A stretch of 42,539 nt of DNA, taken from a virus. The position numbers and the translations under genes are program-made. Positions 25,413-42,539 of this stretch are shown one piece after another; the stretch's first letter is position 1; each line of letters starts with the position of its first letter. The notes beneath the pieces are model-generated. The model made no database searches and was not told the DNA's origin. It saw nothing but the letters and a program-made list of their open reading frames with translations. The stretch is taken from the IMG/VR virus record IMGVR_UViG_3300020442_001730, positions 1 through 42,539 of that record. One strand, given 5' to 3'.

Positions 25413-25545
25413 TTGATTCCTTATGCATTTGTGATAAATGTGTATTAATGTAGTCTTTTAAACTTCTTTGTTTTTTCTCGAATAGCTTTTTTAAAAAATT
25501 TTTTTGAAAGGCTTTTTTCATTCCAAAATTATGTCGACTAATCAC
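25342..25545 (-). CDS. Hypothetical basic protein, start uncertain
   Basis: A frame rich in Lys, Phe and Gln (MKKAFQKNFLKKLFEKKQRSLKDYINTHLSQMHKESNGTQK) overlaps the downstream gene by 71 bases and the upstream stop by 8 (GTGATTAG). I choose GTG 25545 because a G-rich ribosome-like site (GGTGGGGG) stands 5 bases before it; ATG 25521 and GTG 25557 are alternatives. The large overlap lowers confidence that it is translated. Confidence 0.4.
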   Translation of the reverse strand: MISRHNFGMKKAFQKNFLKKLFEKKQRSLKDYINTHLSQMHKESNGTQKTSEKPEEVGKAKVENKVR

Positions 25546-25825
25546 GATAGCCCCCACCCTTTTGTTTATAGAGTCTCGCTAGGGCTTGGGCTTTCCGAGC
25601 CGACCACTTCCCACTAGCCGTTCCATAGGAGTTCGAATTTAAAATTTGTTGATACAGTCTTTTCCTGAGTGCTGGCTTCGTGTAATTGCCAGCAGAGTTA
25701 ACCTTTGATTTCGCCTTAACCTTGCCACCTTTCTTGTATCCCATCTTCTCAGCAACTTCAGGACGTACTTGTTTTAGTTTTCTAATTCCAGCCCCTTTGG
25801 CTCCAGACGGTATTGGCTTTGGCAT
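25538..25825 (-). CDS. Conserved small phage protein with SARKAQ-GGGY motif
   Basis: The 95-residue protein ends NSNSYGTASGKWSARKAQALARLYKQKGGGYRD. The W-S-A-R-K-A-Q...Y...GGGY signature is shared by many small proteins of marine phages and giant viruses. The N-terminal half is very basic (KKGGKVKAKSKV). It shares one base with the preceding gene (TAATG) and sits between small and large terminase genes. Function unknown; packaging help is possible by position. Confidence 0.7.
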   Translation of the reverse strand: MPKPIPSGAKGAGIRKLKQVRPEVAEKMGYKKGGKVKAKSKVNSAGNYTKPALRKRLYQQILNSNSYGTASGKWSARKAQALARLYKQKGGGYRD

Positions 25826-26091
25826 TATTGCTCCTCTTCTTCTCTATTAACGACATCTGTTACAGTTTCATCCAACTTTAAGTTAAATGTAATTCCTTGT
25901 GATACATGCTCCGTCTTAACGTCCGACAAGCTCGGCAAAGACTTATCAAGCAATATCTTGATTGAGTTAACCTGAGAGTTGGACAAGTCTACCTTGCCCT
26001 CAATATGACCCATCAAACGGTTAATCAATTGAGTGACCTGTATCTTCTGTCTACACAACTCACTATGTCTCGTATTTAATCTTCTAGCCAT
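25825..26091 (-). CDS. Putative terminase small subunit
   Basis: The 88-residue product has a helical core, RHSELCRQKIQVTQLINRLMGHIEGKVDLSNSQVNSIKILLDKSLPSLSDVKTEHV. This matches small phage proteins with 'R..I...QL..RL..H..G...MS..Q..AA.ILL.K.LP.L...E', often found just before the large terminase and regarded as small terminase subunits. The C-terminus is acidic. It would recognise phage DNA and regulate the motor. Placement at the head of the packaging block supports the call; I cannot verify DNA binding. Confidence 0.65.
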   Translation of the reverse strand: MARRLNTRHSELCRQKIQVTQLINRLMGHIEGKVDLSNSQVNSIKILLDKSLPSLSDVKTEHVSQGITFNLKLDETVTDVVNREEEEQ

Positions 26092-26093
26092 TT

Positions 26094-26330
26094 CTACTTA
26101 TTCCTATTCTTTTGCAAATCAGATTCATCTGCCCATAAAAATGCACAGGTGTACTCCAGCTTGTCTCTGTTCATCTTGAACTGAGCTTTCGCAATATCAT
26201 ACCCATCAGACTTACCAACCTTGTAAGCGGTTTCCCACATATCAAACATCTTTGCATCGTATTTGGTCATCAACATATACGTCAGTACTATGCCAGCCAT
26301 AAAAGTTAAAACAGGTGCGACTACATTCAT
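26094..26330 (-). CDS. Small membrane-anchored protein, first gene of late operon
   Basis: The 78-residue product has an N-terminal hydrophobic segment (VVAPVLTFMAGIVLTYMLM, about 3-21) followed by a soluble charged part with several Tyr, Met and Lys residues. It could be an uncleaved signal anchor with the C-terminus outside or inside. AAGGAA lies 6 bases before the ATG. It is the first gene of the leftward block. I do not recognise it; possible roles include superinfection exclusion or holin-like activity. Confidence 0.6.
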   Translation of the reverse strand: MNVVAPVLTFMAGIVLTYMLMTKYDAKMFDMWETAYKVGKSDGYDIAKAQFKMNRDKLEYTCAFLWADESDLQKNRNK

Positions 26331-26618
26331 TCAGGTTCCTTTCAGAGAAGTGCGTGTGGACATGCTCTATACATGTAGTTTTAGACCCCCGTGTGCATGT
26401 ACCTGTGTCCACTAGGGGGGGTGTGCAAGGGCAACGGATTCTAAAACCGATGACCGCTAGCCAATACCTTTGCTCTTCAACGGTCTGTGACCACGATTAA
26501 CCATGTTTCAGCTACCTCTTTTTTTACCCGAAGGCGAGGTATGCCTTTTTTTCTATTAAAACCGCACGGCATTGATGTTCATATGTCGTTGATTCAAATA
26601 AAGAAACGGAGCTAACTT
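26331..26618. promoter_or_regulatory. Divergent intergenic region between late and early blocks
   Basis: These 288 bases separate the leftward late operon from the rightward early block. They hold complementary pieces (TGGAC near 26357 with GTCCA near 26409; CCCCC near 26386 with GGGGGGG near 26415), no tRNA and no convincing ORF. A terminator-like hairpin with a T-run sits at 26513-26558 on the plus strand. I cannot find strong -35/-10 pairs, but promoters for both blocks are expected here or nearby. Confidence 0.5.
26513..26558 (+). terminator. Rho-independent-type terminator T1 with CTATTA tail
   Basis: TACCTC (26513-26518) pairs with GAGGTA (26536-26541) around a 17-base loop that contains ACCCGAAGG. 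The T-run TTTTTTT follows, then CTATTA. It is the first of three hairpins in this block that end in TTTTTCTATTA. It stands 60 bases before the first rightward gene, so it would stop any plus-strand transcript that started in the divergent region, or act as an attenuator. Confidence 0.6.
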
Positions 26619-26882
26619 ATGCAAGACCACATCTTCTACGCAATCATCGATTTTCTTTGGATAACAGTTGTATGTCCATTAACAGCCTTCTTAGCATACG
26701 GCTGGTATTCATTAGAACTATTCGCTATATGGCACTACGTTGTCATGTTCCTCTTATGCTTTCCATCCATTCTTGCACCTTGGTTTCTAGCAGACTTTGG
26801 GCATCGCATACAGGAATGCATCAACCATCACAGAAAAATCAAAGAACTACGTTCCCTCACACGATGGACTTTCTTCGATTGA
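26619..26882 (+). CDS. Small membrane protein, 87 residues
   Basis: Two hydrophobic segments are visible (about residues 6-28, YAIIDFLWITVVCPLTAFLAYGW, and 35-58, LFAIWHYVVMFLLCFPSILAPWFL), followed by a basic cytoplasmic-type tail with His, Arg and Lys. A CGGAG site lies about 8 bases before the ATG. It is the first rightward gene and is flanked by the terminator-like hairpins T1 and T2, so it forms its own unit. It may act on the host envelope; no family is recognised. Confidence 0.65.
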   Translation: MQDHIFYAIIDFLWITVVCPLTAFLAYGWYSLELFAIWHYVVMFLLCFPSILAPWFLADFGHRIQECINHHRKIKELRSLTRWTFFD

Positions 26883-26887
26883 TTACC

Positions 26888-26933
26888 ACCTTCTCCTTTA
26901 TCCCTGAAGGAGGAGGTTCCTCTTTTTCTATTA
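26888..26933 (+). terminator. Terminator T2 with CTATTA tail
   Basis: An 11-pair stem (26888-26898 with 26907-26917, one G-T wobble) closes the 8-base loop TATCCCTG and is followed by CTCTTTTTCTATTA. The loop-side sequence CCCTGAAGG resembles those of T1 and T3. It lies 5 bases after the membrane protein stop and 25 bases before the next ATG. Confidence 0.75.
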
Positions 26934-26958
26934 ATGTTCAAAACCATAGGAGATTTAA

Positions 26959-27513
26959 ATGAACATATCTACCATTGAAGTACCTACCGCTGATACCGTA
27001 GTTGACGTATCCCCAGCCACCCCAGCTCAAATCAATAGCTTGGTTAGCATGAAGCTAAAAACCGAAGATGAAGCTAAGCAGTTGACTAAAGTCGAAGCTT
27101 CTCGGTTAATCACGCAACGGCAAGTGTTTGCTAATACGCAACCCGCTGGTGGACTAGCTATATCTGCTAATCAGCAAGGAGCTAGAACGTTTCCCACCGC
27201 TATGGATTCGGAAACTGGTGTAACCACTTGCAATCTTGGAGAGACTCGTAGGTCTTTGCAGAATACGCTGTTAATCAAAGAGCTTATGGCAAACATCGTA
27301 GAACTGGATACGCTTGTTGGCACATCCGATGGCGAAGTAACCGAAGAGCATCAGACGTTGCTTAATCAACTGAAGATGGTTGCTATCAAACTTGGGAAAG
27401 TCAATATGCTGACATCCCATCTCGTGGACAGCGTTTGCGATTCAAACAAAGATGCTGACCGCAAGGCTGTGTCTGACTTCGTGAATCGGGTCAAGATACC
27501 AAACGTTGGCTAA
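26959..27513 (+). CDS. Hypothetical soluble protein, 184 residues
   Basis: The protein is acidic, with an N-terminal Ala/Val/Pro/Thr part (ISTIEVPTADTVVDVSPATPAQINSL), a Gln/Ala segment (ITQRQVFANTQPAGGLAISANQQGART) and a helical C-terminal half (SLQNTLLIKELMANIVELDTLVGTSDGEVTEEHQTLLNQLKMVAIKLGKVNMLTSHLVDSV). A TAGGAGA site precedes the ATG. It stands alone between terminator T2 and composite element A, so it is probably separately controlled. Its base composition is more GC-balanced than its neighbours. No family is recognised. Confidence 0.65.
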   Translation: MNISTIEVPTADTVVDVSPATPAQINSLVSMKLKTEDEAKQLTKVEASRLITQRQVFANTQPAGGLAISANQQGARTFPTAMDSETGVTTCNLGETRRSLQNTLLIKELMANIVELDTLVGTSDGEVTEEHQTLLNQLKMVAIKLGKVNMLTSHLVDSVCDSNKDADRKAVSDFVNRVKIPNVG

Positions 27514-27523
27514 ACCTCGATTA

Positions 27524-27604
27524 CTCGATACCGTGGCTGAAGTACACGGTATCGAGTTCACTTCTTATCGGAGTTCACAAGCCTGATTCACACTATTTCC
27601 ACAA
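27524..27604 (+). promoter_or_regulatory. Composite element A: stem-loop plus 18-base box
   Basis: A perfect 12-base inverted repeat (CTCGATACCGTG at 27524-27535, CACGGTATCGAG at 27545-27556, 9-base loop) starts 10 bases after the upstream stop. After 30 bases comes the box TTCACACTATTTCCACAA (27587-27604), which runs directly into the GGAG ribosome site of the next gene. The same arrangement is found at 28101-28167 and 35271-35341. No T-run follows the hairpin, so simple intrinsic termination is not the obvious reading. Confidence 0.75.
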
Positions 27605-27613
27605 GGAGAAGCA

Positions 27614-27697
27614 ATGAGTTACAGCTACAAACAACGCAAAAAGAATCTTAAGCGTAAGACTAATCAACCACAACCACGAGGTAATTATGCATACTAG
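27614..27697 (+). CDS. Tiny basic peptide, 27 residues
   Basis: ATG 27614 stands 6 bases after AAGGAGAAG and opens MSYSYKQRKKNLKRKTNQPQPRGNYAY before TAG. Nine of 27 residues are Lys or Arg. Its last codons overlap the start of the next gene (ATG 27687) by 11 bases. The good ribosome site and overlap suggest it is translated, either as a small nucleic-acid-binding peptide or as a leader that couples translation to the DUF6876-like gene. Confidence 0.5.
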   Translation: MSYSYKQRKKNLKRKTNQPQPRGNYAY

Positions 27698-28082
27698 AAA
27701 CGCAAACTACGATTTAAACACTTTCTTTGGTTCACGAACTTTCTCAAGTTTAGGTGGGCTGTTTCCTAAATACGAAGTATCAGAAGGTGTTGCACACCTG
27801 ATGACTACAGCACAAGCATCATGGTTTGTAACAGACTGTGTTGCTTTTCATTCCGTGAAATGTAAACCTCAAGACGGACTCATTGTATGTCAGCTTGTTT
27901 GTGACCCTCGCATGAGCGGTGGAGACAAACAACAAGACGGTTTCTTAATGATAACCGATGGGGATTACAACGTTCTTCATAAACAAACTTATGATTCTGT
28001 TAACTTAGAAGACGGTAAATACGAAATCTGGATTCAGTTTAACGGAGATGGTTTCACAGTTTACTTGCCTTCCGAGCATTGA
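27687..28082 (+). CDS. DUF6876-like protein
   Basis: The 131-residue product contains VSEGVAHLMTTAQASWFVTDCVAFHSV, then a strand-rich part, and ends DGKYEIWIQFNGDGFTVYLPSEH. This matches the DUF6876 pattern ('...T.GV.YLA..A..YWL.D.I.S.Q...... W.L......LTC.DGN..V...Q.I.YTDFPL..I.LY.....LLPSEY'), common in phages and plasmids but of unknown role. It ends 18 bases before the stem of composite element B. Predicted soluble. Confidence 0.7.
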   Translation: MHTRNANYDLNTFFGSRTFSSLGGLFPKYEVSEGVAHLMTTAQASWFVTDCVAFHSVKCKPQDGLIVCQLVCDPRMSGGDKQQDGFLMITDGDYNVLHKQTYDSVNLEDGKYEIWIQFNGDGFTVYLPSEH

Positions 28083-28100
28083 TACACCAACTATTGTGTG

Positions 28101-28167
28101 CTGAGGACTTCGGTTCTCAGCCACTATGGTTGCGTGTTGACGAGACTAACTCACACTATTCCCACAA
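28101..28167 (+). promoter_or_regulatory. Composite element B: UUCG stem-loop plus 18-base box
   Basis: CTGAGGAC (28101-28108) pairs with GTTCTCAG (28113-28120) around TTCG, a C(UUCG)G tetraloop, the most stable common RNA loop. After 29 bases comes CTCACACTATTCCCACAA (28150-28167), one or two bases different from the boxes of elements A and C. Terminator T3 begins seven bases further on. Confidence 0.75.
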
Positions 28168-28173
28168 CCATTC

Positions 28174-28217
28174 CTTCCCCAACCCTCAAAGGGGAAGCAC
28201 ATCCCTTTTTTCTATTA
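28174..28217 (+). terminator. Terminator T3 with CTATTA tail
   Basis: CTTCCCC (28174-28180) pairs with GGGGAAG (28191-28197) around AACCCTCAAA; nine bases later TTTTTTCTATTA follows (28206-28217). The loop sequence CCCTCAAAGG resembles T2. The distance from stem to T-run is longer than in classical terminators, as in T1, so the T-run plus CTATTA tail may have a separate meaning. Confidence 0.6.
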
Positions 28218-28254
28218 CGCAGTACAACTTTTGAAACTAAGTGAAAGGAAAGTT

Positions 28255-28620
28255 ATGGATAATTTAGACGATTTAATTGTTGTTTGGTCACAACCTCATG
28301 TAAGTTTTGGTGCTGAAACTCCTGAAGGATGTCAATGGACAAAGTTTCAGAAAGAACAACCTCCTGTATTTTTATGTGACGAAAATGGAGCGGTGCTTAC
28401 ATTTAAATCTCAGCAAGAGTTGTTTGATGCCCAACTGTTTAAAGCGGAAAACATTGATGACCTTTTAGATTATTCCGAAGCTGGAATATACATTACAACA
28501 TTAAAACAATGTAAAGCACGAAACGAAAACTTCAGAATGTTTAGTTGGCACAGAGACGGCACGGAACAACCAGCTAAAACAGGTCGTATATCAAACATAT
28601 TTTCTATAGTTAAAGATTAA
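28255..28620 (+). CDS. Hypothetical acidic protein, 121 residues
   Basis: The product begins MDNLDDLIVVWSQPHVSFGAETPEGCQWTKFQKEQPPVFLCDENGAVLTFKSQQELFDAQLF. It contains alternating acidic loops and hydrophobic strands, suggesting a small alpha-beta fold. The start at 28255 is taken from AAGGAAAG eight bases upstream; an in-frame ATG at 28231 lacks such a site. It is the first gene after the T3 hairpin. No recognised family. Confidence 0.6.
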   Translation: MDNLDDLIVVWSQPHVSFGAETPEGCQWTKFQKEQPPVFLCDENGAVLTFKSQQELFDAQLFKAENIDDLLDYSEAGIYITTLKQCKARNENFRMFSWHRDGTEQPAKTGRISNIFSIVKD

Positions 28621-28649
28621 CTCAACCATCAAATCCACAGGAGATTACG

Positions 28650-28895
28650 ATGAATAGATTTAAAAATCCTATCGTTTTAAATAAACGAATAGAGTCTACT
28701 AATAAGAATGCCGAGACACTTACGTTTGACTGGCGTGTCACACATGGAACGAATCGTTTGTATCCAACAAACATGGGTACACAAGTATGGATGAAGTTAC
28801 TTGGTAATCACAACAAGACACTTAGTCCAGCTCAACTTATGCACGTTGTTAATAGTGACAAGTTCAACGTAGAGATTAACGCATCACTTGATTAG
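28650..28895 (+). CDS. Hypothetical protein, 81 residues
   Basis: The sequence MNRFKNPIVLNKRIESTNKNAETLTFDWRVTHGTNRLYPTNMGTQVWMKLLGNHNKTLSPAQLMHVVNSDKFNVEINASLD is hydrophilic, with one amphipathic helix near the C-terminus. CAGGAGA lies 6 bases before the ATG. Tight spacing with the next gene (9 bases) places it in the small-gene operon. I see no known motif. Confidence 0.6.
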   Translation: MNRFKNPIVLNKRIESTNKNAETLTFDWRVTHGTNRLYPTNMGTQVWMKLLGNHNKTLSPAQLMHVVNSDKFNVEINASLD

Positions 28896-28904
28896 GAGAT
28901 ACGA

Positions 28905-29318
28905 ATGCCTATTGACCTTCGCACAGATGCACAGCCCTTGAAGAAAGCTCTCAAGGAAATACAACAAGTAACACATAGTGTAGATAACGACATGAAACCT
29001 ATCGTTACTAAAACAAACTATCAATGTTGCCAAAGCTGTGGTTGCAGTTTCATCGCTCATTATTATGGCGAGAATTGCGACTACATTTTTTATCACAATC
29101 AAAGCAATGAATCACTCAAAGCTTGGGGTTGCACCATGTTGTATCACACAATTGAACCTACTAGTCGTAGATTTGTTGTCGACACTCTTCGCAAACATGA
29201 TTGCACCGTTAACTGGGATGGATGTGAACACACAGCCATTGAAGTTATGGTTCCCAAAGCTAAAGAAATATTAAAACCTGAACATTGGGTAAAGGAGATT
29301 CCAAATGAACAGTATTAG
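28905..29318 (+). CDS. DUF6891-like Cys-rich protein
   Basis: The 137-residue product has NYQCCQSCGCSFIAHYYGENCDYIFYHNQSNES, then LYHTIEPTSRRFVVDTLRKHDCTVNWDGCEHTAIEVM. The layout, a Cys-Cys-x-x-C-G metal site, Y-x-F-Y-H and a final V-x-W-D-G strand, resembles DUF6891-type proteins ('F.CCQ.CG.A.........YVFYH.QD......G....L.........V...I...L...G..V.WDG....RI.V'). It may bind zinc. Its 3' end overlaps the next gene by 14 bases. Confidence 0.6.
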   Translation: MPIDLRTDAQPLKKALKEIQQVTHSVDNDMKPIVTKTNYQCCQSCGCSFIAHYYGENCDYIFYHNQSNESLKAWGCTMLYHTIEPTSRRFVVDTLRKHDCTVNWDGCEHTAIEVMVPKAKEILKPEHWVKEIPNEQY

Positions 29319-29514
29319 TGATATTGAAATGGAACCATTAATCCCTGATTGTTGTATGTGTGGCAAGTCTTGTCGTAATGACGAGACTGGCTGGCATTAC
29401 GGTCATAATCCAGACCCTTTTTGCACACCTGAAGGCAGATGTTGCGATGAGTGTAACAAATTAGTTGTTGCTTATCGTATACAAAAGTTTAACGAATTGA
29501 AAGGAACTGTATGA
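29305..29514 (+). CDS. Zinc-knuckle protein, 69 residues
   Basis: MNSISDIEMEPLIPDCCMCGKSC followed by GWHYGHNPDPFCTPEGRCCDECNKLVVAYRIQKF is a compact zinc-binding protein. Ligands are probably C16/C19 with H and C in GHNPDPFC and C-x-x-C in CDEC. The 'GHNP.P......RCC..CN..VV..R' motif recurs in phages and bacteria. Its first nine codons have a diverged copy in the intergenic region near 38966. Overlap with both neighbours suggests coupling. Confidence 0.7.
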   Translation: MNSISDIEMEPLIPDCCMCGKSCRNDETGWHYGHNPDPFCTPEGRCCDECNKLVVAYRIQKFNELKGTV

Positions 29515-29906
29515 ATAAGCGAAATGATTATCCAAAAGTCGAAGTAATAACGAGAAAGGAAGTCAAAGTCACTAAGCTGAAAATTAGCTTTACGATAGCA
29601 ACAGACACAACAATTTCCGAAGACAAGCTTTTGATGGAATTGAGATGGCTTCTAAGCGATATTAAGATTCCTCACTCAGATTTTACTGGAATATATTTGG
29701 CTCCAATAAAGATAGATACAGTAGATTTAGTCCCAGAAGATACGAGAGTTTTTGCGACTCAAAAGGTAGAGAACTTTTTCTACATGAAAACCGCAGATTC
29801 TATTGCAGATGGAGAATGGGAAGAACTAGAAAATCCGAGCGGAATAGTAGCAACTTCTGAACCAACAATTACTAATGATAAAGAATGGAGCTTTTATGAA
29901 CGATAA
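29511..29906 (+). CDS. Hypothetical protein, 131 residues
   Basis: The product begins MNKRNDYPKVEVITRKEVKVTKLKISFTIATDTTISEDKLLMELRWLLSDIKIPHSDFTGIYL and has an acidic C-terminal half (ADSIADGEWEELENPSGIVATSEPTITNDKEW). The beta-alpha pattern and W-E-E-L suggest a small soluble fold. It starts by ATGA overlap with the zinc-knuckle gene and overlaps the next start by 11 bases. No family recognised. Confidence 0.6.
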   Translation: MNKRNDYPKVEVITRKEVKVTKLKISFTIATDTTISEDKLLMELRWLLSDIKIPHSDFTGIYLAPIKIDTVDLVPEDTRVFATQKVENFFYMKTADSIADGEWEELENPSGIVATSEPTITNDKEWSFYER

Positions 29907-30237
29907 CATTGAAACCATTACGTTCACAGTTAAGTACACCGTATTTACAGACTGGGAAGTTCAAGTAAGTGTCCCAGCATACGAACTTACGCAAGAGCAA
30001 ATGCAATTACTTGCTAATGAAGAAATTGGTTATTACGATTTACCTGAATCACTCAGAGATGGTTGCGATTTAGATAGTAACTTAGCAGACACCGCTGATA
30101 TGGGACGACCAATAGGACATGCACAAGCAATACATGACCAAAGTTTAGCTAACTTAGAATTTTACGACATCACAAATGTAGAATTCGAAGATAGTGATGG
30201 TAAGTCAGTTGAACTAGAACAGGAGGATACACTATGA
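29896..30237 (+). CDS. Hypothetical acidic protein, 113 residues
   Basis: The product, MNDNIETITFTVKYTVFTDWEVQVSVPAYELTQEQMQLLANEEIGYYDLPESLRDGCDLDSNLADTADMG..., is strongly acidic with a beta start. ATG 29896 is chosen since TGGAGC stands a few bases before it and it overlaps the upstream stop by 11 bases; an in-frame ATG at 29875 is possible. Highly acidic small phage proteins can mimic DNA, but no particular family supports that here. Confidence 0.55.
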   Translation: MNDNIETITFTVKYTVFTDWEVQVSVPAYELTQEQMQLLANEEIGYYDLPESLRDGCDLDSNLADTADMGRPIGHAQAIHDQSLANLEFYDITNVEFEDSDGKSVELEQEDTL

Positions 30238-30380
30238 CTGACGAATTTTATGAGTGGCTCAACCAATGTCCTGTCCAATGGGTACGATTAGGAACAAAAG
30301 GAAGTCTTCATTTAGAATCTGCTACATATGAATTTTATGCAGATACCGAAGACACCGAAGACGAACAAGGAGACTTATGA
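30234..30380 (+). CDS. Small acidic protein, 48 residues
   Basis: ATG 30234 overlaps the TGA of the preceding gene (ATGA), with AGGAGG 6 bases upstream. The product MTDEFYEWLNQCPVQWVRLGTKGSLHLESATYEFYADTEDTEDEQGDL resembles short phage proteins beginning '..F..WL..CPV.W......' of unknown role. Four bases separate it from the GP88-like gene. Confidence 0.65.
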   Translation: MTDEFYEWLNQCPVQWVRLGTKGSLHLESATYEFYADTEDTEDEQGDL

Positions 30381-30384
30381 CCAC

Positions 30385-31053
30385 ATGAATTACAATACTG
30401 CCAAGCAAATTGTTGGCTCTGACCTTGGACAAGCTTCCAAGATGCCAACAAAAACTTGGGGTATTTCTGCAAGTAAGTGTGTTACTGGAATCAAACTTTC
30501 GAAATTACCAAACAGCTCTTGTTATTTTTGTTATGCAAAGAATAACAAGTATTCAACTCCTGTGGTAATGGACTGCCATGAACGTAGACTACAAGGTATT
30601 GAACATCCCCTTTGGGTTGATGCAATGGTGTACCTCATGCAGTTTCATTCGCTGTCTGACTTTCGTTGGTTTGATTCTGGCGACATACAAAGCTTAGAAC
30701 ATTTGCAAAAGATTGTAACTATTGCCAGAAAGCTACCTCAAGTAAAGTTCTGGTGTCCAACTCAAGAACGTAAGTTTATTAGTCAGTTCTTAAAGACCGA
30801 CACCATTCCCACTAACCTTGTTTTCAGACTTTCTCGTCCGTTCATTAACATGACCGTACCGAAGAAAGATTTATTAACTACAACAAGTTCTGTATTAACA
30901 AAAGACTTTTTTGCTAAGACTGTTTCCAATGCACGAGCTGTTAAGTGCATGGCAAAGTCTGTTGCAAAAGACCATCCCAGCTACGGCAAATGCGGTACAT
31001 GTCGTGCTTGCTGGGATTCAACTGTAGACCACATCTACTACCTAAAGCATTAA
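30385..31053 (+). CDS. GP88-domain protein
   Basis: The 222-residue product matches the phage GP88 family: TWGISASKCVTGIKLSKLPNSSCYFCYAKNNKY near the N-terminus (Cys positions S-K-C and C-Y-F-C), then DFRWFDSGDIQSLEHLQKIVTIARKLPQVKFWCPTQERKFI, and a C-terminal CGTCRACWD. The Cys arrangement suggests metal or iron-sulphur binding, and the W-D-S-G-D-I.. F.T/S.. pattern resembles a TIM-barrel-like strand order; no reaction is established. ATG 30385 is preferred over 30328, which would overlap the previous gene entirely. CAAGGAGA lies 12 bases upstream. Confidence 0.78.
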   Translation: MNYNTAKQIVGSDLGQASKMPTKTWGISASKCVTGIKLSKLPNSSCYFCYAKNNKYSTPVVMDCHERRLQGIEHPLWVDAMVYLMQFHSLSDFRWFDSGDIQSLEHLQKIVTIARKLPQVKFWCPTQERKFISQFLKTDTIPTNLVFRLSRPFINMTVPKKDLLTTTSSVLTKDFFAKTVSNARAVKCMAKSVAKDHPSYGKCGTCRACWDSTVDHIYYLKH

Positions 31054-31057
31054 ATTA

Positions 31058-31085
31058 TTAACAATAGTAATATTTAGTGTATAAT
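31058..31085 (+). promoter_or_regulatory. Sigma-70-type promoter before DUF932 gene
   Basis: TTAACA (31058-31063), a 16-base spacer and a perfect TATAAT (31080-31085) stand 33 bases before the DUF932 start, just after the GP88 stop. The spacer includes ATAGTAAT, similar to the TTAGTAAT half-sites in the 35.4 and 39.0 kb regions. It is the best bacterial-type promoter I see in the window. Confidence 0.7.
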
Positions 31086-31118
31086 GAACCTATCTACTTT
31101 AATTAAAGGAGAAACACT

Positions 31119-32096
31119 ATGGATTTGACTTCCATGATGTCTGTCGAAACAGACACCCCTGTTGCACCAGCAATTATTACTGATACTCATACGAATTATG
31201 ATGCTCGTTTTGCTTTGTTTCCACCATTGCCTGATGCCTTGAACTATCTTCCAGTAGCTAAGCCTGTTTTCTCTGAAGACATGAACGGTGTATTGACAGA
31301 GAACAAACATCAAGTCCAACTTTGGAATCCTAAAGTCAATGAGCCGATTCAAATTGTTGGCAACAAGTATACGTTTCATAACTTCAATGACTTGTATAGC
31401 CGTTATGTTCAATGCATTGTAAACTCTGACCTCAATCTTAAAGATATGCGTATTCAGTTCAAACCGAACTGGAACGCTTCATCTGTTGAAATATGGGTAT
31501 CTTTGCCAGCACATAACTTTGAAAAATATCTGGGCGAGGAATCATTTATGCTTATTCGCTTGCGTGATTCACACAATCAAAGTAGTGTGCGTTCTGTTAC
31601 CGCAGAGATTGTTCGTCGTTTTTGTTTCAACGGTTGTGTCTGGGGCAAAGAAAAATCTACATACATACAAGAGAAACATACAAGTAGGGCTGACCCATTG
31701 AGTCTTGCTGACTCTGCTAGTAAGTTTCCATCTATCCTTGCTAACCACGCTGAAATGATGGCAAGCATGAAAGATGTACATGTTTCCAAAGATGAATCCT
31801 TTGACTTCTTTAGAAGTACTATTGCTTCTCGTATTGTCAATGGCAAATCAAAAGTCAATGAAAGAGAAATGGAGCGTTGCAACCATCGTTGGGCAAAGTA
31901 TCCCCAAGATGGAGAAACTCTTTGGAGAACATACAACGTGCTTACTGATTACTCTACTCACTTTACTACGAATGCTAGTGATGAAGTCCGTAAAGCGGAA
32001 GACCGCAGAAGTGAAGTACGTTCTGCTCTCAACACTAGTTGGTTCAGGTCAAAGCTTTTTAAAGCAGAAGCTGATGAAGTAGAAGTTTTATCGTGA
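31119..32096 (+). CDS. DUF932 family protein
   Basis: The 325-residue protein resembles DUF932 phage and plasmid proteins: PVFSEDMNGVLTENKHQVQLWNPKVNEPIQIVGNKYTFHNFNDLYSRYVQ (a 'VG..Y....N.D...' start), then a central part with EESFMLIRLRDSHNQSSVRSVTAEIVRRFCFNGCVWGKEKSTYIQEKHTSR ('..G.D.S.S......VRV.C.NGM......' type). A helical C-terminus follows with NALTDYSTHF-like TYNVLTDYSTHFTT. The family is often linked to plasmid maintenance or phage genomes; its activity is unknown. It has its own promoter and an AAAGGAG site, implying strong expression. Confidence 0.78.
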   Translation: MDLTSMMSVETDTPVAPAIITDTHTNYDARFALFPPLPDALNYLPVAKPVFSEDMNGVLTENKHQVQLWNPKVNEPIQIVGNKYTFHNFNDLYSRYVQCIVNSDLNLKDMRIQFKPNWNASSVEIWVSLPAHNFEKYLGEESFMLIRLRDSHNQSSVRSVTAEIVRRFCFNGCVWGKEKSTYIQEKHTSRADPLSLADSASKFPSILANHAEMMASMKDVHVSKDESFDFFRSTIASRIVNGKSKVNEREMERCNHRWAKYPQDGETLWRTYNVLTDYSTHFTTNASDEVRKAEDRRSEVRSALNTSWFRSKLFKAEADEVEVLS

Positions 32097-32296
32097 AGTC
32101 AAACGATGTGTTGTTCAACATAATCATCATTGGTCTTTGTGATGCTCAATACGAAGATGACAGGGAACGATTCGAAGCAATCATTCAATGGCTTGATAAG
32201 GGAAGAGACTTTGGTTTCTTCTCTGTTGAGTCAGTTGATGAACTGCTTAACCAGTATCAAGACTATTTAGACAAAGACAAAGATGAACATAACTAA
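32093..32296 (+). CDS. Hypothetical acidic protein, 67 residues
   Basis: GTG 32093 overlaps the DUF932 stop (GTGA) and opens MKSNDVLFNIIIIGLCDAQYEDDRERFEAIIQWLDKGRDFGFFSVESVDELLNQYQDYLDKDKDEHN. A short hydrophobic strand near the start is followed by acidic helices. The overlap indicates translational coupling with DUF932. No family recognised. Confidence 0.55.
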   Translation: MKSNDVLFNIIIIGLCDAQYEDDRERFEAIIQWLDKGRDFGFFSVESVDELLNQYQDYLDKDKDEHN

Positions 32297-32304
32297 GGTT
32301 GCTT

Positions 32305-32847
32305 ATGCTAACTAAAACAAGAAAGGTAATACGCAAACGTAAGTCTTCCAAGTTCAAGATGTACGACTATACTGCTGGACTCCTCAAGGAGTTCGGCAGA
32401 TATTTTCTTAGCTTCTTAACTCGTAAGCATTACATTATCAATGACGTAATGGATTATCGACAAGAAGGCGAAATAGTAGACAGATGCTTTGAGCTTTACC
32501 TAAAAGAACATTCAGACTTATCTGACTGTCGTCCTGAAGATTTTAAACATTGTTCTTCTCAAGGACTTTGGAAACAAGATTGTCTCATTGATTACGACAA
32601 CAACATTGCCTTCGGTATTTACCGTGGCAAGCTTGTTTATGCAACGCTAGATGAAATGCATCAAGGTTCTTTCAATGGTTCATTCGATAGTATTGCTAAT
32701 CCAAATGTACTCAAGCCAATCGAGCTTGAAGACTTTACCGATGAGCATTACGAAATCACAAACTTTTTATTAAGGGATGCAAATGACTACGAAGTCCAAA
32801 CCTTATGGTCGGAAAGCGAAAGCATGGGTGCATGTAAACCAACATAA
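32305..32847 (+). CDS. Hypothetical protein, 180 residues
   Basis: The product begins with a basic stretch (MLTKTRKVIRKRKSSKFKMYDYTAGLLKEFGRYFLSFLTRKHYIINDVMDYRQEGEIVDRCFELYLKEHSDLSDCRPEDFKHC) and has an acidic C-terminal half. ATG 32305 follows TAAGG by 6 bases; a TTG at 32299 is possible. It overlaps the next gene by 65 bases in another frame. No recognised motif. Confidence 0.6.
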   Translation: MLTKTRKVIRKRKSSKFKMYDYTAGLLKEFGRYFLSFLTRKHYIINDVMDYRQEGEIVDRCFELYLKEHSDLSDCRPEDFKHCSSQGLWKQDCLIDYDNNIAFGIYRGKLVYATLDEMHQGSFNGSFDSIANPNVLKPIELEDFTDEHYEITNFLLRDANDYEVQTLWSESESMGACKPT

Positions 32848-33046
32848 GATTCGTGCTAACTCCAAACTACCTGACGATGCAACGCCTGAGCCTGTGCTTA
32901 CAGTAAAGCAAGGCAAGCAAAACACTTATTGTTTTGAAGTTGAGTTCGAAGGCAAAACTAAATTTGTGTACAGCCCTGACAAACCAAAGCCCTGTGGGGC
33001 TAAGGTTTGGGCAGAGACTGATGGCAATGTAAAAATTATTAAATAG
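32783..33046 (+). CDS. Hypothetical basic protein, 87 residues
   Basis: The product, MTTKSKPYGRKAKAWVHVNQHKIRANSKLPDDATPEPVLTVKQGKQNTYCFEVEFEGKTKFVYSPDKPKPCGAKVWAETDGNVKIIK, looks like a small beta-barrel with a basic N-terminus. ATG 32783 is favoured by TAAGGGA 8 bases upstream; ATG 32777 is too close to that site. Part of the frame lies within the end of the preceding gene, which shows dense packing. A nucleic-acid-binding role is possible but unsupported. Confidence 0.6.
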   Translation: MTTKSKPYGRKAKAWVHVNQHKIRANSKLPDDATPEPVLTVKQGKQNTYCFEVEFEGKTKFVYSPDKPKPCGAKVWAETDGNVKIIK

Positions 33047-33056
33047 GAGAACGCTT

Positions 33057-33440
33057 ATGGCATTTAATACCACAACGCTTTACCAGTTGGTCATCAATAC
33101 AGATGATCAACGACTTCTTGCGACAACAAGAATCAGACAAAATCTTTTGTTCTCAAGTGCAGTTGCACTATTGACTGAGCTAACTAAATGGCATTTCATT
33201 CCTGAGCTTAAGAAACAAATAAGTTCTGTAAAGCCAGTACATATTGCTAAGTTAGACCCAGACTCGCACCTTGAGTTTTCAACTTACAACGATTGCTATT
33301 CAGGTTCTGTTCACATTATTAAACGCAGATGTACTGCTAGTAAGCAAGACTTTATGAAATTCTTTAATCGTTACTCCACACATGAATCTTTATTCATTAC
33401 TCCTAAGAGAAAGGAATCAGCATATGAAGTCGAATGCTAA
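33057..33440 (+). CDS. Hypothetical protein, 127 residues
   Basis: The protein has a helical N-terminal half (LYQLVINTDDQRLLATTRIRQNLLFSSAVALLTELTKWHFIPELKKQISSV) and a strand-rich second half with two Cys. TAGGAGA precedes the ATG by 7 bases. It overlaps the next gene by 17 bases. No family recognised. Confidence 0.6.
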   Translation: MAFNTTTLYQLVINTDDQRLLATTRIRQNLLFSSAVALLTELTKWHFIPELKKQISSVKPVHIAKLDPDSHLEFSTYNDCYSGSVHIIKRRCTASKQDFMKFFNRYSTHESLFITPKRKESAYEVEC

Positions 33441-33750
33441 TGACCACAGGTTAAACCTTGATGTTTATTCTAAGATTGCCGAGTCTTTGGACTGGGCAAT
33501 GTTTACTCCGACAGGCAACAAAAAAGTTCAAAGAATATTTCAGCAAGCTTTACAAAGAGACAGAGGTTCTTATGCAGAACCATACTTTTTATTTGCATCA
33601 CAAGCAGTAGCTAGACTGAGCAACAATAAAAACTTTGGAGAAGCAATGGACTCTGAAGTACGCAGAACTCTTTACAACCGCATCCAATATGTATTGGAAA
33701 AGTCTGACATGCTTAAATTCGGAGAAAGCTGGGACGACTATGTCTGGTAA
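33424..33750 (+). CDS. Hypothetical helical protein, 108 residues
   Basis: The product MKSNANDHRLNLDVYSKIAESLDWAMFTPTGNKKVQRIFQQALQRDRGSYAEPYFLFASQAVARLSNNKNFGEAMDSEVRRTLYNRIQYVLEKSDMLKFGESWDDYVW looks mainly helical. ATG 33424 follows AAAGGAA by 7 bases, so the longer frame from 33382 is not used. Coupled on both sides by overlaps. Unknown family. Confidence 0.6.
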   Translation: MKSNANDHRLNLDVYSKIAESLDWAMFTPTGNKKVQRIFQQALQRDRGSYAEPYFLFASQAVARLSNNKNFGEAMDSEVRRTLYNRIQYVLEKSDMLKFGESWDDYVW

Positions 33751-33946
33751 CAAACCTAAACGGTGCAAGCTATGTCACAACAGAGGTTACATTCATACTT
33801 ACAACACCCAAATGGACGTAGATGAAGTACAACGATGTGACGAGTGTTGGTTTAACAGCCAACCTTGGTCACTTCCAAACGATGAAGTTGCATTCCAAGA
33901 AATGCAATTCACTAAGCAATACTGGTCAATTAAGGAGAACCAATGA
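33740..33946 (+). CDS. Zinc-finger protein, 68 residues
   Basis: RCKLCHNRGYIHTYNTQMDVDEVQRCDECWF forms two C-x-x-C pairs (residues 9-12 and about 33-36), as in DnaJ-type zinc hairpins, followed by an aromatic-rich tail. ATG 33740 lies 8 bases before the upstream stop in a different frame, with GGGACGA upstream as weak ribosome site. It probably folds around one zinc ion and may contact nucleic acid or protein. Confidence 0.65.
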   Translation: MSGNKPKRCKLCHNRGYIHTYNTQMDVDEVQRCDECWFNSQPWSLPNDEVAFQEMQFTKQYWSIKENQ

Positions 33947-34089
33947 AAAATAATACGCTAGGCACTATGCCCGTTAATGAACTCTTAGCTAAACTAAAAT
34001 CTGAACCTGTGTTAGACATGTACTATCGCTTGCTTTTAAATTTAGTCGAAGACCTAGAGCTTATGGAATTCTTAGAAGAGGAGAACTAA
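33943..34089 (+). CDS. Small acidic helical protein, 48 residues
   Basis: ATG 33943 overlaps the zinc-finger stop (ATGA), 7 bases after AAGGAG. The product MKNNTLGTMPVNELLAKLKSEPVLDMYYRLLLNLVEDLELMEFLEEEN is acidic and probably helical throughout. Its TAA shares a base with the next ATG (TAATG). Start and stop overlaps give good support despite its length; function unknown. Confidence 0.6.
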   Translation: MKNNTLGTMPVNELLAKLKSEPVLDMYYRLLLNLVEDLELMEFLEEEN

Positions 34090-34373
34090 TGAATATCGAA
34101 AGATTTAAAACAATAATAGCTCAAATGAAAAGCCAACTTGACTTTCCGAAAGATGCACATGGTAACTACATAGGTCGATATGCTGTCTATGAAAATGACG
34201 AACATGGAGAGGTATGTTACGTTGAAGACATAAATGGTAATCCTGTAATTTTTGATGAAATAGAAGATGCTGTTTCATACATCAGAATAACAAGACAGCT
34301 ACCTGTTCATAGCGAAGATGATTTACATGAGGTAGGTATTTATATTCAGTACATAGACGAGGAGAACCAATGA
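34089..34373 (+). CDS. Hypothetical acidic protein, 94 residues
   Basis: The product begins MNIERFKTIIAQMKSQLDFPKDAHGNYIGRYAVYENDEHGEVCYVEDINGNPVIFDEIEDAVSYIRIT. It has strands around G-N-Y-I-G and E-V-C-Y-V, and the acidic C-terminus DDLHEVGIYIQYIDEENQ. It follows AGAGGAGAA and is coupled to both neighbours by 1-base and 4-base overlaps. Unknown family. Confidence 0.6.
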   Translation: MNIERFKTIIAQMKSQLDFPKDAHGNYIGRYAVYENDEHGEVCYVEDINGNPVIFDEIEDAVSYIRITRQLPVHSEDDLHEVGIYIQYIDEENQ

Positions 34374-34708
34374 ACGAACAAGTTTTAACAGTCGCTACTT
34401 TGAAAGAAGTAAGCAGACATGTATACAAGGGATACAACATTATTATTTACATTCACGAAAACGAAATTAAGGACGGTATTAAACTTAAAAAAAATGAAGA
34501 ATGGTTATTCCAAAATTTTAGTTACGCAATAAATAAAAGTGACGAAATAACTGGCTTACCATTACTCGATGATCATTATCATTCATCAAAAAACTCAGAT
34601 GGCGAATCAATGCATAGCGTTTCAGAATGTAAAGACAATGCAATGAAATACATTGACCTTAATGAAAATATTGATGTAGCTTTTTCCCAATACTTAAAGG
34701 AGTCGTAA
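34370..34708 (+). CDS. Hypothetical protein, 112 residues
   Basis: The product, MNEQVLTVATLKEVSRHVYKGYNIIIYIHENEIKDGIKLKKNEEWLFQNFSYAINKSDEITGLPLLDDHYHSSKNSDGESMHSVSECKDNAMKYIDLN, contains an 'Y.GY.I......W.Y.I..' type strand pattern and then 'A...A..YID', seen in small phage proteins of unknown role. It starts by ATGA overlap 8 bases after GAGGAGA. Predicted soluble. Confidence 0.6.
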   Translation: MNEQVLTVATLKEVSRHVYKGYNIIIYIHENEIKDGIKLKKNEEWLFQNFSYAINKSDEITGLPLLDDHYHSSKNSDGESMHSVSECKDNAMKYIDLNENIDVAFSQYLKES

Positions 34709-35013
34709 TGAATAATGGAGTTATAGAAGGAAACCATCATATAACCGAAGAGTTTCTTAACGATAATTACAAAGTTTATGAAGTTCCTGTCAGAGAAACT
34801 AATGACTTTGTTTTAACAGTAATAGCCGATAGCAAAAAAAATGCTTTGCGATGGGTGCAATCACACATTAATAGTTTGGAAAACGAATACTATTTGTCAA
34901 ACAAGTTACATGTGCCAGTTGACTTTTACGCCCTTGATGATAAGAATCCATCAATAGGTCAAATTACAAAGAAAGAAACTGTTGATGTCAAACGCAAAAT
35001 CAGGAGGACTTAA
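34708..35013 (+). CDS. Hypothetical protein, 101 residues
   Basis: MNNGVIEGNHHITEEFLNDNYKVYEVPVRETNDFVLTVIADSKKNALRWVQSHINSLENEYYLSNKLHVPVDFYALDDKNPSIGQITKKETVDVKRKIRRT reads as strand, then helix (D-S-K-K-N-A-L-R-W-V) and a basic tail. The 'F...V.A.....A...V' layout is common to small phage proteins of this kind. AAGGAG precedes it by 5 bases. It is coupled at both ends. No named family. Confidence 0.6.
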   Translation: MNNGVIEGNHHITEEFLNDNYKVYEVPVRETNDFVLTVIADSKKNALRWVQSHINSLENEYYLSNKLHVPVDFYALDDKNPSIGQITKKETVDVKRKIRRT

Positions 35014-35270
35014 TGTCTATAGTACAAAAAGTATTAATCGAACTTAAAGTTCCAAAAGATACAGTCTTCAGAGATGCAGACCATGATGCCATTGATACGT
35101 TTATACACGAACAATTAGCTAGATACTTTGTTACCAGAGCTAAAATCAAAGATGGTTTTAATATTAAACCTTTGAGAGATGGTCATAAACCAGCTCATGT
35201 CATATTGCCGAATGGTCGGTTCATTGAAAACTATGAAACCACAGATGTAATACTTACCAAAAAATACTAG
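35013..35270 (+). CDS. Hypothetical protein, 85 residues, last gene of early block
   Basis: The product MSIVQKVLIELKVPKDTVFRDADHDAIDTFIHEQLARYFVTRAKIKDGFNIKPLRDGHKPAHVILPNGRFIENYETTDVILTKKY is a mixed alpha-beta protein. It shares one base with the upstream stop. The stem of composite element C begins at the first base after its stop codon. Unknown family. Confidence 0.6.
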   Translation: MSIVQKVLIELKVPKDTVFRDADHDAIDTFIHEQLARYFVTRAKIKDGFNIKPLRDGHKPAHVILPNGRFIENYETTDVILTKKY

Positions 35271-35341
35271 GCTTTGGGGGGGAACCCCCAAGGCTTCAAT
35301 CCTTGTTTAGGGTAGACACACTACTCACACTATTTCCACAA
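35271..35341 (+). promoter_or_regulatory. Composite element C: stem-loop plus 18-base box
   Basis: GCTTTGGGGG (35271-35280) pairs with CCCCCAAGGC (35285-35294, one wobble) around GGAA. After 29 bases comes CTCACACTATTTCCACAA (35324-35341), immediately followed by an A-run. This is the third copy of the hairpin-spacer-box arrangement. It ends the rightward early block and leads into the structured region 35348-35494. Confidence 0.75.
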
Positions 35342-35347
35342 AAAAAA

Positions 35348-35494
35348 CCAGCCCCAAAGGATAAACATATATTACGTTTGGAGACATAATGAAATATAAG
35401 AGATGGGGCTGGGAGGACATAAAGGAAATTAGTAATGTGGTTGAAAACAAGAAGAATCGCACTAAATATAGTGCAGAAAGTCCACATTACTAAT
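35348..35494 (+). ncRNA. Candidate structured RNA with nested inverted repeats
   Basis: Three perfect pairings follow one another. CCAGCCCCA (35348-35356) pairs with TGGGGCTGG (35404-35412). ATTAGTAATGTGG (35428-35440) pairs with CCACATTACTAAT (35482-35494). Inside that second stem, GCACTA (35459-35464) pairs with TAGTGC (35469-35474) around AATA. The arrangement fits one folded transcript or a set of operators. The stems also form on the opposite strand, so a bidirectional terminator between convergent blocks is a serious alternative. A 34-codon ORF lies inside. Confidence 0.45.
35389..35493 (+). CDS. Possible 34-residue peptide inside the structured region
   Basis: ATG 35389 follows TTGGAG by 5 bases and opens MKYKRWGWEDIKEISNVVENKKNRTKYSAESPHY. 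The frame contains one arm of the first stem and both arms of the second, and its stop lies at the end of the last arm, so translation would disturb the RNA fold. The K-x-K-R-W-x-W start and W-E-D-I-K-E-I could be a real small protein or chance; the good ribosome site is the main support. Confidence 0.35.
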   Translation: MKYKRWGWEDIKEISNVVENKKNRTKYSAESPHY

Positions 35495-35520
35495 AGTAAT
35501 TATATACTGTTTGACAATAA

Positions 35521-35994
35521 TTATGTATCTTTATTTAACTCTAACCAATCCCACAACTTTGCTGTAAGACTGTCTTCTATAGACTGTAAGTTATGTAATG
35601 CTTTCCTTCTGTACTTCCATGCACGATAATTACTAATACTCATATTCCTTGCACATTTACGCACAGAATCTGACAATAACACCTGATAAATTTTATCTCT
35701 GTCGAGATTAAATCTTTTCCATTCCACCTTATCCGCAAGAAGCTTAGATGCTTTTGCTTTCTCTTCCTTACTTCCATACGTCCAGTATGTCCACAACACT
35801 TCCAATTCTGTCTGCTTATCTATAAAACGAAAAATCATTGCACTCTGTGCATGAAAGTCAAACGGTGTGAGCTTGTCATCATCGTGACGAAACTTATCTG
35901 CCATAAAGAAAGTAAAGCTAGGCTGACTCACAATACTTTTCTCACGAGTTTTAAACGCAAAACGAATTGCTTGATCAGCAGAATAAAATCTCAT
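35521..35994 (-). CDS. Putative antiterminator or HTH protein after RusA
   Basis: The 157-residue product begins MRFYSADQAIRFAFKTREKSIVSQPSF and has a C-terminal stretch VRKCARNMSISNYRAWKYRRKALHNLQSIEDSLTAKLWDWLEL that looks like a helix-turn-helix. Its ATG overlaps the RusA stop (ATGA). In lambdoid phages the late antiterminator gene Q follows a resolvase (rap or rusA) gene, so this may act likewise. The HTH and the neighbour argument are suggestive only; a terminase-like DNA-binding protein is an alternative. No Cys zinc site is seen. Confidence 0.45.
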   Translation of the reverse strand: MRFYSADQAIRFAFKTREKSIVSQPSFTFFMADKFRHDDDKLTPFDFHAQSAMIFRFIDKQTELEVLWTYWTYGSKEEKAKASKLLADKVEWKRFNLDRDKIYQVLLSDSVRKCARNMSISNYRAWKYRRKALHNLQSIEDSLTAKLWDWLELNKDT

Positions 35995-38869: not shown

Positions 38870-38902
38870 GTATTCATATTTATTTAAAATAAATATGAAT
38901 AC
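38870..38902. repeat. 33-base perfect palindrome
   Basis: GTATTCATATTTATTT (38870-38885) and AAATAAATATGAATAC (38887-38902) are exact reverse complements around a single base. The arms are AT-rich and the repeat lies 29 bases before the primase-helicase start. A dimeric or tetrameric DNA-binding protein could recognise it; a cruciform or a bidirectional terminator is less likely since no GC core is present. Confidence 0.75.
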
Positions 38903-38965
38903 ATGTAGTATTATATTATAAATGTAGTACTACGTTTTTTTTTAAACCATTATAAAGAATATTAA

Positions 38966-41204: not shown

Positions 41205-41609
41205 GTGAATTGTAGCAAGTGTGGCTCGCAAAATATTGGAACATTAGATACTCGCAAAAAATATCATAGTAGTTTTTCGCAAGTCGCTAGTAGTTTCGAA
41301 TCAGGCGAAAATATTATTCGTAAAAAGAAATGTGCTGAATGTAATCATATTTTTTTTACAAAAGAATTTTTTTTGGAAAGCCTTGAGCAAAGAGTAGTCG
41401 TTCAAAAGCCTGAAAAGAAAAAGATAAAAATTAGTAAACCTAAGCCTAAACCGAAACCGAACAAACCAAAAGTAAAAAAGAGTGTGAGTATCAAAAAGAT
41501 TAAACACGAAGCCACGGATAGCCTGTTTGATGAGGTCGAGGATTTGGAAGATCGTGTAAATCTGGATGACATAGGAAGGGAGTTAGGAATTGATTTCGGA
41601 AAAGATTAA
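41205..41609 (+). CDS. NrdR-like zinc ribbon with lysine-rich tail
   Basis: The N-terminal 60 residues (MNCSKCGSQNIGTLDTRKKYHSSFSQ...IIRKKKCAECNHIFFTKEFFLE) match the zinc ribbon of NrdR ('M.C..C......V.DTR......IRRRR.C..C..RF.T.E'), with C3, C6 and a C-x2-C pair near 46-49. The ATP-cone domain of NrdR is missing; instead there is a K/P-rich linker (KPKPKPKPNKPKVKK) and an acidic end. It may bind DNA. It starts at GTG 41205 and overlaps the next gene by 20 bases. Confidence 0.7.
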   Translation: MNCSKCGSQNIGTLDTRKKYHSSFSQVASSFESGENIIRKKKCAECNHIFFTKEFFLESLEQRVVVQKPEKKKIKISKPKPKPKPNKPKVKKSVSIKKIKHEATDSLFDEVEDLEDRVNLDDIGRELGIDFGKD

Positions 41610-41829: not shown

Positions 41830-41844
41830 GCATAAGGAGGACAT

Positions 41845-42539
41845 ATGGATAAGAATCTCAGAAAAAGAAATGGCATTTGGCAGTACCGCTTTGTAATTGA
41901 AGGCAAGACGTATCGTGGTTCTACACGATGCAAGGAGCTACAGTTCGCAAGAAAGGTATTGCACAAAGCAAAGCTCAAAGCGTATACAGAATATGCTACC
42001 AATCAGAAAGAACCGCATACTTTCGCAGAAGCTTTAGAGGAATGGCTTGAGGATAAGAATGGAAATAGAACTGTGCTAGAAAGTGCAACAAAAGGTAGGG
42101 TTTGGATACAATACTTTGAGCAGTATAGGGTAAAGTATCTTACAGACATCACACCTGATGTTGTTAGAAAGATTATCAGAGAGAAGTTTCGTAAGATAAT
42201 CTCTGCAAAAGGTACACCTTTAACCGATGCAACAATCAATAGATACATTGCGTTGCTTCGTACAGTTTTAAACTTTGCCTGTCGGGATTTACAATGGATA
42301 GACAATGTTCCACGCTTTCGTCTTGAAGCTGAAAACAACGCACGATCTCGCTATCTAAGCTTGGCTGAATACAAAAGACTCCATGCGGTTTTGCCTGAGC
42401 CTTACAAGGCTATGGCACAACTGTCTGTTGCAACTGGGTTACGTCAAGGTAATGTACTGGGATTGATGTGGGAGCAAATTGATCTAGCAAATCGAATGCT
42501 GATACTACCCTCACAGGTTATGAAAAACGGTCAACCTTT
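41845..42539 (+). CDS. int: Tyrosine-type integrase, partial (runs off right edge)
   Basis: Only 231 codons are present. The N-terminal arm-binding region (MDKNLRKRNGIWQYRFVIEGKTYRGSTRCKELQFARKVLHKAKLKAY) is followed by a core-binding SAM-like domain (about 57-155) and the start of the catalytic domain, where R200 in ATGLRQGNVLGLMWEQIDL is the first catalytic arginine. The HxxR and tyrosine motifs lie beyond the edge. AAGGAGG stands 4 bases before the ATG. It implies site-specific insertion into a host chromosome; the adjacent attP is not visible. Confidence 0.9.
   Translation, partial: MDKNLRKRNGIWQYRFVIEGKTYRGSTRCKELQFARKVLHKAKLKAYTEYATNQKEPHTFAEALEEWLEDKNGNRTVLESATKGRVWIQYFEQYRVKYLTDITPDVVRKIIREKFRKIISAKGTPLTDATINRYIALLRTVLNFACRDLQWIDNVPRFRLEAENNARSRYLSLAEYKRLHAVLPEPYKAMAQLSVATGLRQGNVLGLMWEQIDLANRMLILPSQVMKNGQP

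Follow-up and report, generated by a model that had tools for sequence, protein, structure and literature searches.

The inverted repeats at positions 35,348 to 35,494 of a phage record from IMG/VR probably belong to a minus-strand late-promoter unit that works by processive antitermination of the Q/AlpA type, with the 157-amino-acid product of the adjacent gene as the antiterminator. The window, i.e., the whole 42.5-kb stretch of DNA analyzed here, carries this element at the point where small genes on the plus strand and the minus-strand replication operon converge (Table 1). The structure, its strand, the layout of promoter, box and pause-like element in nine phages, the covariation between protein and box, and the match to the AlpA fold were all obtained by computation.

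Table 1. Features of the element and its surroundings (window coordinates).
Feature	Position	Strand	Basis or remark
Late operon, structural genes to terminase	175-26091	-	putative read-through target, same strand
Block of small genes	26619-35270	+	
G-rich hairpin, GGAA loop, end of plus-strand operon	35271-35294	+	outside the interval of the sequence-only reading
U8 tract of terminator	35340-35347	-	8-A run on plus strand; L002 and further relatives likewise U-rich here
Predicted leader RNA, ~153 nt	35340-35492	-	fold z = -8.2
9-bp pairing CCAGCCCCA/TGGGGCTGG	35348-35356 and 35404-35412		sequence
Terminator stem, 3' arm	35348-35356	-	pairs with 35404-35412
Terminator stem, 5' arm	35404-35412	-	9 bp in window; L002 has 12 bp, one of them G.U
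34-codon ORF	35389-35493	+	GGAG start site; judged non-coding, frame lost in 7 relatives
Pyrimidine-rich stretch TTTCCTTTATGTCCTCC, anti-Shine-Dalgarno-like	35412-35428	-	largely unpaired in fold
13-bp pairing ATTAGTAATGTGG/CCACATTACTAAT	35428-35440 and 35482-35494		sequence
Outer stem P1, 3' arm	35428-35440	-	pairs with 35482-35494
Outer stem P1, 5' arm	35482-35494	-	two pairs become G.U in L002
6-bp pairing GCACTA/TAGTGC	35459-35464 and 35469-35474		sequence; nested inside 13-bp pairing
Palindrome CACTATATTTAGTG, hairpin P2, NrdR-box-like	35460-35473	-	conserved
-10-like TAATGT, candidate sigma-dependent pause	35484-35489	-	sequence only
-10 element TATAAT	35499-35504	-	sequence and alignment with relatives
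Putative antiterminator-binding box CAAACA in promoter spacer	35508-35513	-	GGGACA in other phages
157-aa AlpA-like antiterminator gene (candidate, unannotated)	35521-35994	-	directly downstream of RusA gene
-35 candidate TACATA	35522-35527	-	weak, 3/6; overlaps stop codon; 17 bp from -10
Replication operon: primase-helicase, HNH endonuclease, small gene, RusA, 157-aa gene	38841-35521	-	
Stand-alone NrdR zinc-ribbon protein	41205-41609		PF22811 above curated cut-off; no ATP-cone match reported

An earlier reading of the letters without database searches (the sequence-only reading) had claimed three perfect pairings in this region, all of which were found there. Its view that the stems are unlikely to have arisen by chance is borne out by dinucleotide and local shuffles: one of 100 whole-window dinucleotide shuffles contained a perfect inverted repeat of 13 bp whose arms were at most 60 apart, while local shuffles of 163 bp yielded the 13-bp repeat in none of 2000 trials and the 9-bp repeat in 2.1%. 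Folding of both strands, one of the checks it had asked for, gave structures far better than those of shuffled sequences, with z = -6.7 for the plus strand of the region and z = -8.2 for the predicted minus-strand RNA from 35492 to 35340 (0 of 200 shuffles). No Rfam family was matched in the window at the gathering score, relaxed thresholds returned only chance-level matches and nothing credible in the region, and a search for tRNA and tmRNA found none. A sequence resembling a tRNA T-arm (TTCAATCC) near position 35297 was treated as a coincidence.

The strand on which the structure is formed was deduced from a comparison with L002, a near relative that keeps the whole element and whose version of the 157-aa protein is 84% identical. 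Four pairs located in P1, P2 and the terminator stem differ between the two phages, two of them in P1. Because each of the four makes a G.U pair on the minus strand but an A.C mismatch on the plus strand, we assign the stems to a minus-strand RNA. The sequence-only reading had considered a plus-strand structured RNA or a translation-controlled leader peptide, and it is hard to see how either could be correct. Folding is possible on either strand thanks to the symmetry of the stems, but every changed pair is A.C on the plus strand; a ribosome site does precede the 34 codons, but the frame is broken in L002 and unconserved in six other relatives, i.e., in every relative examined. A leader-peptide attenuator calls for a conserved small ORF, and here the frame is lost in those seven relatives. 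The further suggestion of a bidirectional terminator between convergent operons was right as to termination but not as to a single two-way element, since two separate one-way terminators are present. Minus-strand transcription is predicted to end at the 9-bp stem followed by U8. The hairpin at 35271-35294 has G.U pairs on the plus strand only in both phages, with the loop GGAA in the window and GAAA in L002; because of this opposite wobble pattern and the GNRA loop on the plus strand, it was taken to mark where the plus-strand operon ends. What gives the minus-strand structure its meaning are a promoter, a pause-like element and an antiterminator gene, all of which had been missed.

Relatives other than L002 were not found by nucleotide and single-protein searches; a DNA search of phage records gave no match, and a prophage search in genomes gave nothing. 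The pattern ACTATTAGTAATGTGGA matched, besides L002, six places without the rest of the element, which were taken as chance. We reached further relatives via the terminase (268 phages), with a homologue of the 157-aa protein present in 17 of the 50 records tested, and a profile search with the 157-aa family led to 50 loci. The comparisons below use nine distinct phages: the window, L002, L120, L121, L122, L123, L124-L126, L132 and L162/L165, where the near-identical L124-L126 were counted once and L162/L165 likewise. The window is mosaic relative to another phage, G001 (L020, L021): the terminase proteins are 97% identical, with about 93% DNA identity over 23592-26961, the replication/antiterminator region has 73% DNA identity, and for the plus-strand genes just ahead of the element no match was detected in G001.

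Behind the 157-aa gene, all nine distinct phages share the same layout, in which a -35 element is followed at 17 bp by a -10 element and a hexameric box lies in the spacer (in L122 the fixed-spacing script places the -10 one base away from its position). The -35 hexamer is weak in L002 as it is in the window; in most relatives a good one occupies the same place (TTGATA, TTTACA, TTGTCA, TTGCAA). The box has two versions: CAAACA follows the -35 at 8 bp and GGGACA at 5 bp. At a distance of exactly 18 bp from the box, each of the nine phages has TAnnnT, against a background of 1.9% per position, the motif having been found in these same sequences. When offsets from 34 upstream to 39 downstream were scanned, only offset 18 had TAnnnT in all nine. 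This layout resembles that of the AlpA system, in which a GGGACG site lies between -35 and -10, a -10-like pause between -1 and +5 is required, and a downstream intrinsic terminator is passed (PMC7969949, PMC9371919). GGGACG and the phage GGGACA are one base apart, and simple arithmetic on the published motif GGGACG-N5-GGTA yields a box-to-pause distance that is also 18 bp if TA begins the -10 at -12. At the more distant loci L127, L129, L131, L137, L140, L147, L154, L160 and L163, no CAAACA or GGGACA box occurs at the same spacing; these have a short hairpin, a pyrimidine-rich stretch and a terminator behind the homologous gene, their leaders are shorter, and several show a -10-like hexamer near the stop codon.

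The leaders of the relatives range from 104 to 213 nt and end in a U-rich tract; most contain pyrimidine-rich runs with CC. An intrinsic terminator, consisting of a GC stem and a U-rich tract, was found in the window, L002, L120, L123, L124, L162 and others; in the window its loop, at 47 nt, is a long one. Just past the terminator, a motif near GTGGAAATA is present in the window (35331-35339, minus strand) and in L002, L120, L121, L124, L132, L162, L128, L129, L131 and L149, with the variants GTGTAAATA in L131 and CGTAAATA in L129 and two copies in both L120 and L124.

Searches of Pfam, PHROG and PDB sequences with the 157-aa protein gave no match and no function. Its AlphaFold model (pLDDT 86) was compared by Foldseek with 350,542 PDB chains, and ranks 1 and 2 were taken by Pseudomonas aeruginosa AlpA with probability 1.00. 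AlpA was again the top PDB match, at probability 1.00, for the L123 homologue modeled with its own sequence as first row, the two models having alignment rows in common. These matches are modest, with E-values of 1.4e-3 to 7.8e-3 and TM scores of 0.45-0.65. A viral protein annotated as Antitermination protein Q was also matched structurally (probability 0.90), while the Q21 fold was a weak match (rank 45, E 4.8). The AlpA/Q fold comprises an N-terminal ring segment and a C-terminal helix-turn-helix, and helices 111-118 and 122-154 of the model are compatible with the latter. Since AlpA is absent from profile and single-sequence PDB searches of the 157-aa family, we call the protein AlpA-like by fold and layout, not a sequence homologue. 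The expectation of a Q-type protein came from the DNA layout, before the fold result. Judged by its modeled fold, the 157-aa product is probably a processive antiterminator of the AlpA type.

Additional evidence comes from the residues that may read the box. AlpA contacts its DNA through R128, K138, S139, T140 and H142 (PMC7969949, PMC9371919). In the phage family R112 is invariant, and ten residues separate R112 from K122, as is the case for R128 and K138 of AlpA; this correspondence rests on spacing, not on superposition. All phages with a GGGACA box carry K122 with N, S or T as the next residue (SK[NST]), and all those with CAAACA carry N122-Y123 (NY). Box type thus tracks recognition-helix residues 122-123 without exception in nine of nine distinct phages, which, because these phages are related, represent fewer than nine independent events. 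The alignments suggest a putative recognition code in which residues 122-123 specify the CAAACA or GGGACA box. The family would then provide a set of natural specificity variants in which box and residues 122-123 differ together, and the code could be tested on them directly.

Further into the leader, the palindrome CACTAnATnTAGT(G) lies 10-12 nt after TAnnnT in all eight leaders that reach this point (L122 is cut before it). A pyrimidine-rich stretch usually comes next, ahead of the GC stem and the U-rich tract. Its outer pairs covary among the nine sequences, with a score of 0.302 versus 0.087 for shuffles and at most 0.125 for slid controls. The inner arms are invariant, and a DNA-binding role is therefore also possible for the palindrome. 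We know of no antitermination unit with a conserved palindrome inside its leader. The palindrome matches the core of the NrdR box, acaCwAtATaTwGtgt. The fetched loci, which total 1.52 Mb and include redundant copies, contain 22 matches to the NrdR-box-like pattern, and every one of them lies in this leader. A stand-alone NrdR zinc-ribbon protein is encoded by the window and by 21 of 38 related records, palindrome-less phages included. The palindrome might be an operator at which this phage-encoded NrdR-type protein blocks or releases polymerase at the loading point, although we consider this quite unlikely: true NrdR needs two boxes and binds single ones 530-1000 times more weakly (PMC12051234), and the window has one perfect match in place of two 16-bp boxes spaced by an integer number of helix turns. 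If such an operator did exist, late transcription would need a second signal linked to nucleotides or replication.

Transcription, pausing, antitermination and the late-gene target are steps that we infer. RNA polymerase would start near 35492, from the promoter directly behind gene 35521-35994, and make a structured leader of about 153 nt, normally stopping at the GC stem and U8 (35412-35340). During a hold at TAATGT, the 157-aa protein would bind CAAACA in the spacer and load onto the polymerase, which could then pass the terminator at 35340 and later ones. The most likely output would be the late operon from 26091 to 175, the only long same-strand target. In the window, 8.6 kb of opposite-strand genes separate this operon from the element, and read-through via the plus-strand block (35270-26619) would therefore be antisense to it; the same layout, with an opposite-strand gap of 6-9 kb, is present in 13 relatives mapped. 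A second box-plus-palindrome site was found neither in the fetched loci nor near the late genes, and a promoter scan for a second late promoter near 26100-26600 gave nothing above shuffles. Several observations weigh against the antitermination reading: the late genes are not adjacent, the -35 of the window and of L002 is weak, the terminator loop is long, AlpA is matched by fold and not by sequence, and more distant family members do not have the box.

Other features of the window were noted in passing. A tyrosine integrase gene (41845-42539) runs off the record end, which points to a temperate phage and an incomplete record. The primase and Sak-like genes diverge from an AT-rich region with a perfect inverted repeat (38870-38905) of 16 bp or more, possibly an origin or operator. 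Directly behind gene 26959-27513, another perfect inverted repeat, of 13 bp (27523-27557), is possibly the terminator of that gene.

The compact succession of promoter, hairpin, unpaired stretch and terminator would also suit a stand-alone small RNA acting in trans, which would base-pair with ribosome-binding sites through its CUCC-rich unpaired stretch, with antitermination playing a lesser part or none. Terminated phage RNAs can work in this manner, as exemplified by StxS (PMC12197685), pyrimidine-rich CC-containing runs are found in most relatives, and the unpaired stretch has a perfect 10-nt complement in the integrase ribosome site GGAGGACATA (41836-41845). However, 4.8% of shuffled segments equal this match, L002 does not have the TCCTCC core, and the spacing of box and pause as well as the AlpA-like neighbor would be left unexplained; we therefore view this alternative as rather unlikely, albeit one to be kept in mind.

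Instead of an antiterminator, the 157-aa protein could be an activator of transcription from the promoter behind its gene. The weak -35 of the window is what one sees at activator-dependent promoters, but the -35 is good in most relatives, the fold matches are antiterminators, and an activator needs neither a -10-like element in the transcribed region nor a terminator, all of which makes this role improbable. We find it similarly improbable that the element lacks its own promoter and simply serves the replication operon (primase to 35521) as structured 3' UTR and intrinsic terminator. In keeping with such a view, it immediately follows the final gene of the operon, and a stem with U8 is an ordinary way for an operon to end. 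Against it stand the fixed spacing, conserved in nine phages, of TATAAT, the box in the spacer and the second -10-like element, the good -35 hexamers that most of these phages have, and the protein/DNA covariation, which the view cannot accommodate.

Antitermination by the 157-aa protein can be compared with several known systems. The Caulobacter GTA protein GafZ with its ZBE site likewise combines an antiterminator with terminators further downstream and with a putative element in the spacer from -35 to -10; GafZ differs in being structurally unlike Q or AlpA, according to its authors, and in requiring GafY and IHF (PMC11150451). The Q proteins of phage 21 and lambda with pR'/tR' share with the element the succession of regulator gene, promoter, spacer element, pause, leader and terminator, and the likeness to lambdoid Q includes a regulator gene behind RusA (PMC6606751). 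Q21 uses direct-repeat sites, unlike the protein described here, and its fold match is weak. At a lambdoid pR' the late genes follow directly downstream, whereas here 6-9 kb of opposite-strand genes lie between. The lambda 6S and StxS RNAs originate in the late leader. Both resemble the predicted transcript in being short RNAs ended by a phage terminator, but differ from it in sequence and structure, and a trans role is here only a candidate (PMC12197685).

The closest likeness is to AlpA, the alpB promoter and tB of P. aeruginosa, with which the phage element shares the fold, the spacer element, the -10-like element in the initial transcribed region and the downstream intrinsic terminator (PMC7969949, PMC9371919), as well as a similar spacing of the DNA-reading R and K residues. 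No sequence similarity between the proteins was detected, however, and the box is CAAACA in the window versus GGGACG for AlpA. While AlpA serves a chromosomal lysis locus, the phage unit is found in a replication-gene neighborhood, with no lysis genes directly past the terminator, and its leader is longer, structured and equipped with a conserved palindrome. If our reading is true, a conserved palindrome inside the leader would be added to antitermination units, and late-type control would be exerted from a site upstream of the late genes and 6-9 kb away from them, with genes of the opposite strand in between and read-through yielding a long antisense RNA. AlpA would no longer be an isolated bacterial curiosity, because a phage family would possess AlpA-fold proteins together with their cognate sites; this would support the derivation of alp from a prophage, as previously suggested (PMC7969949).
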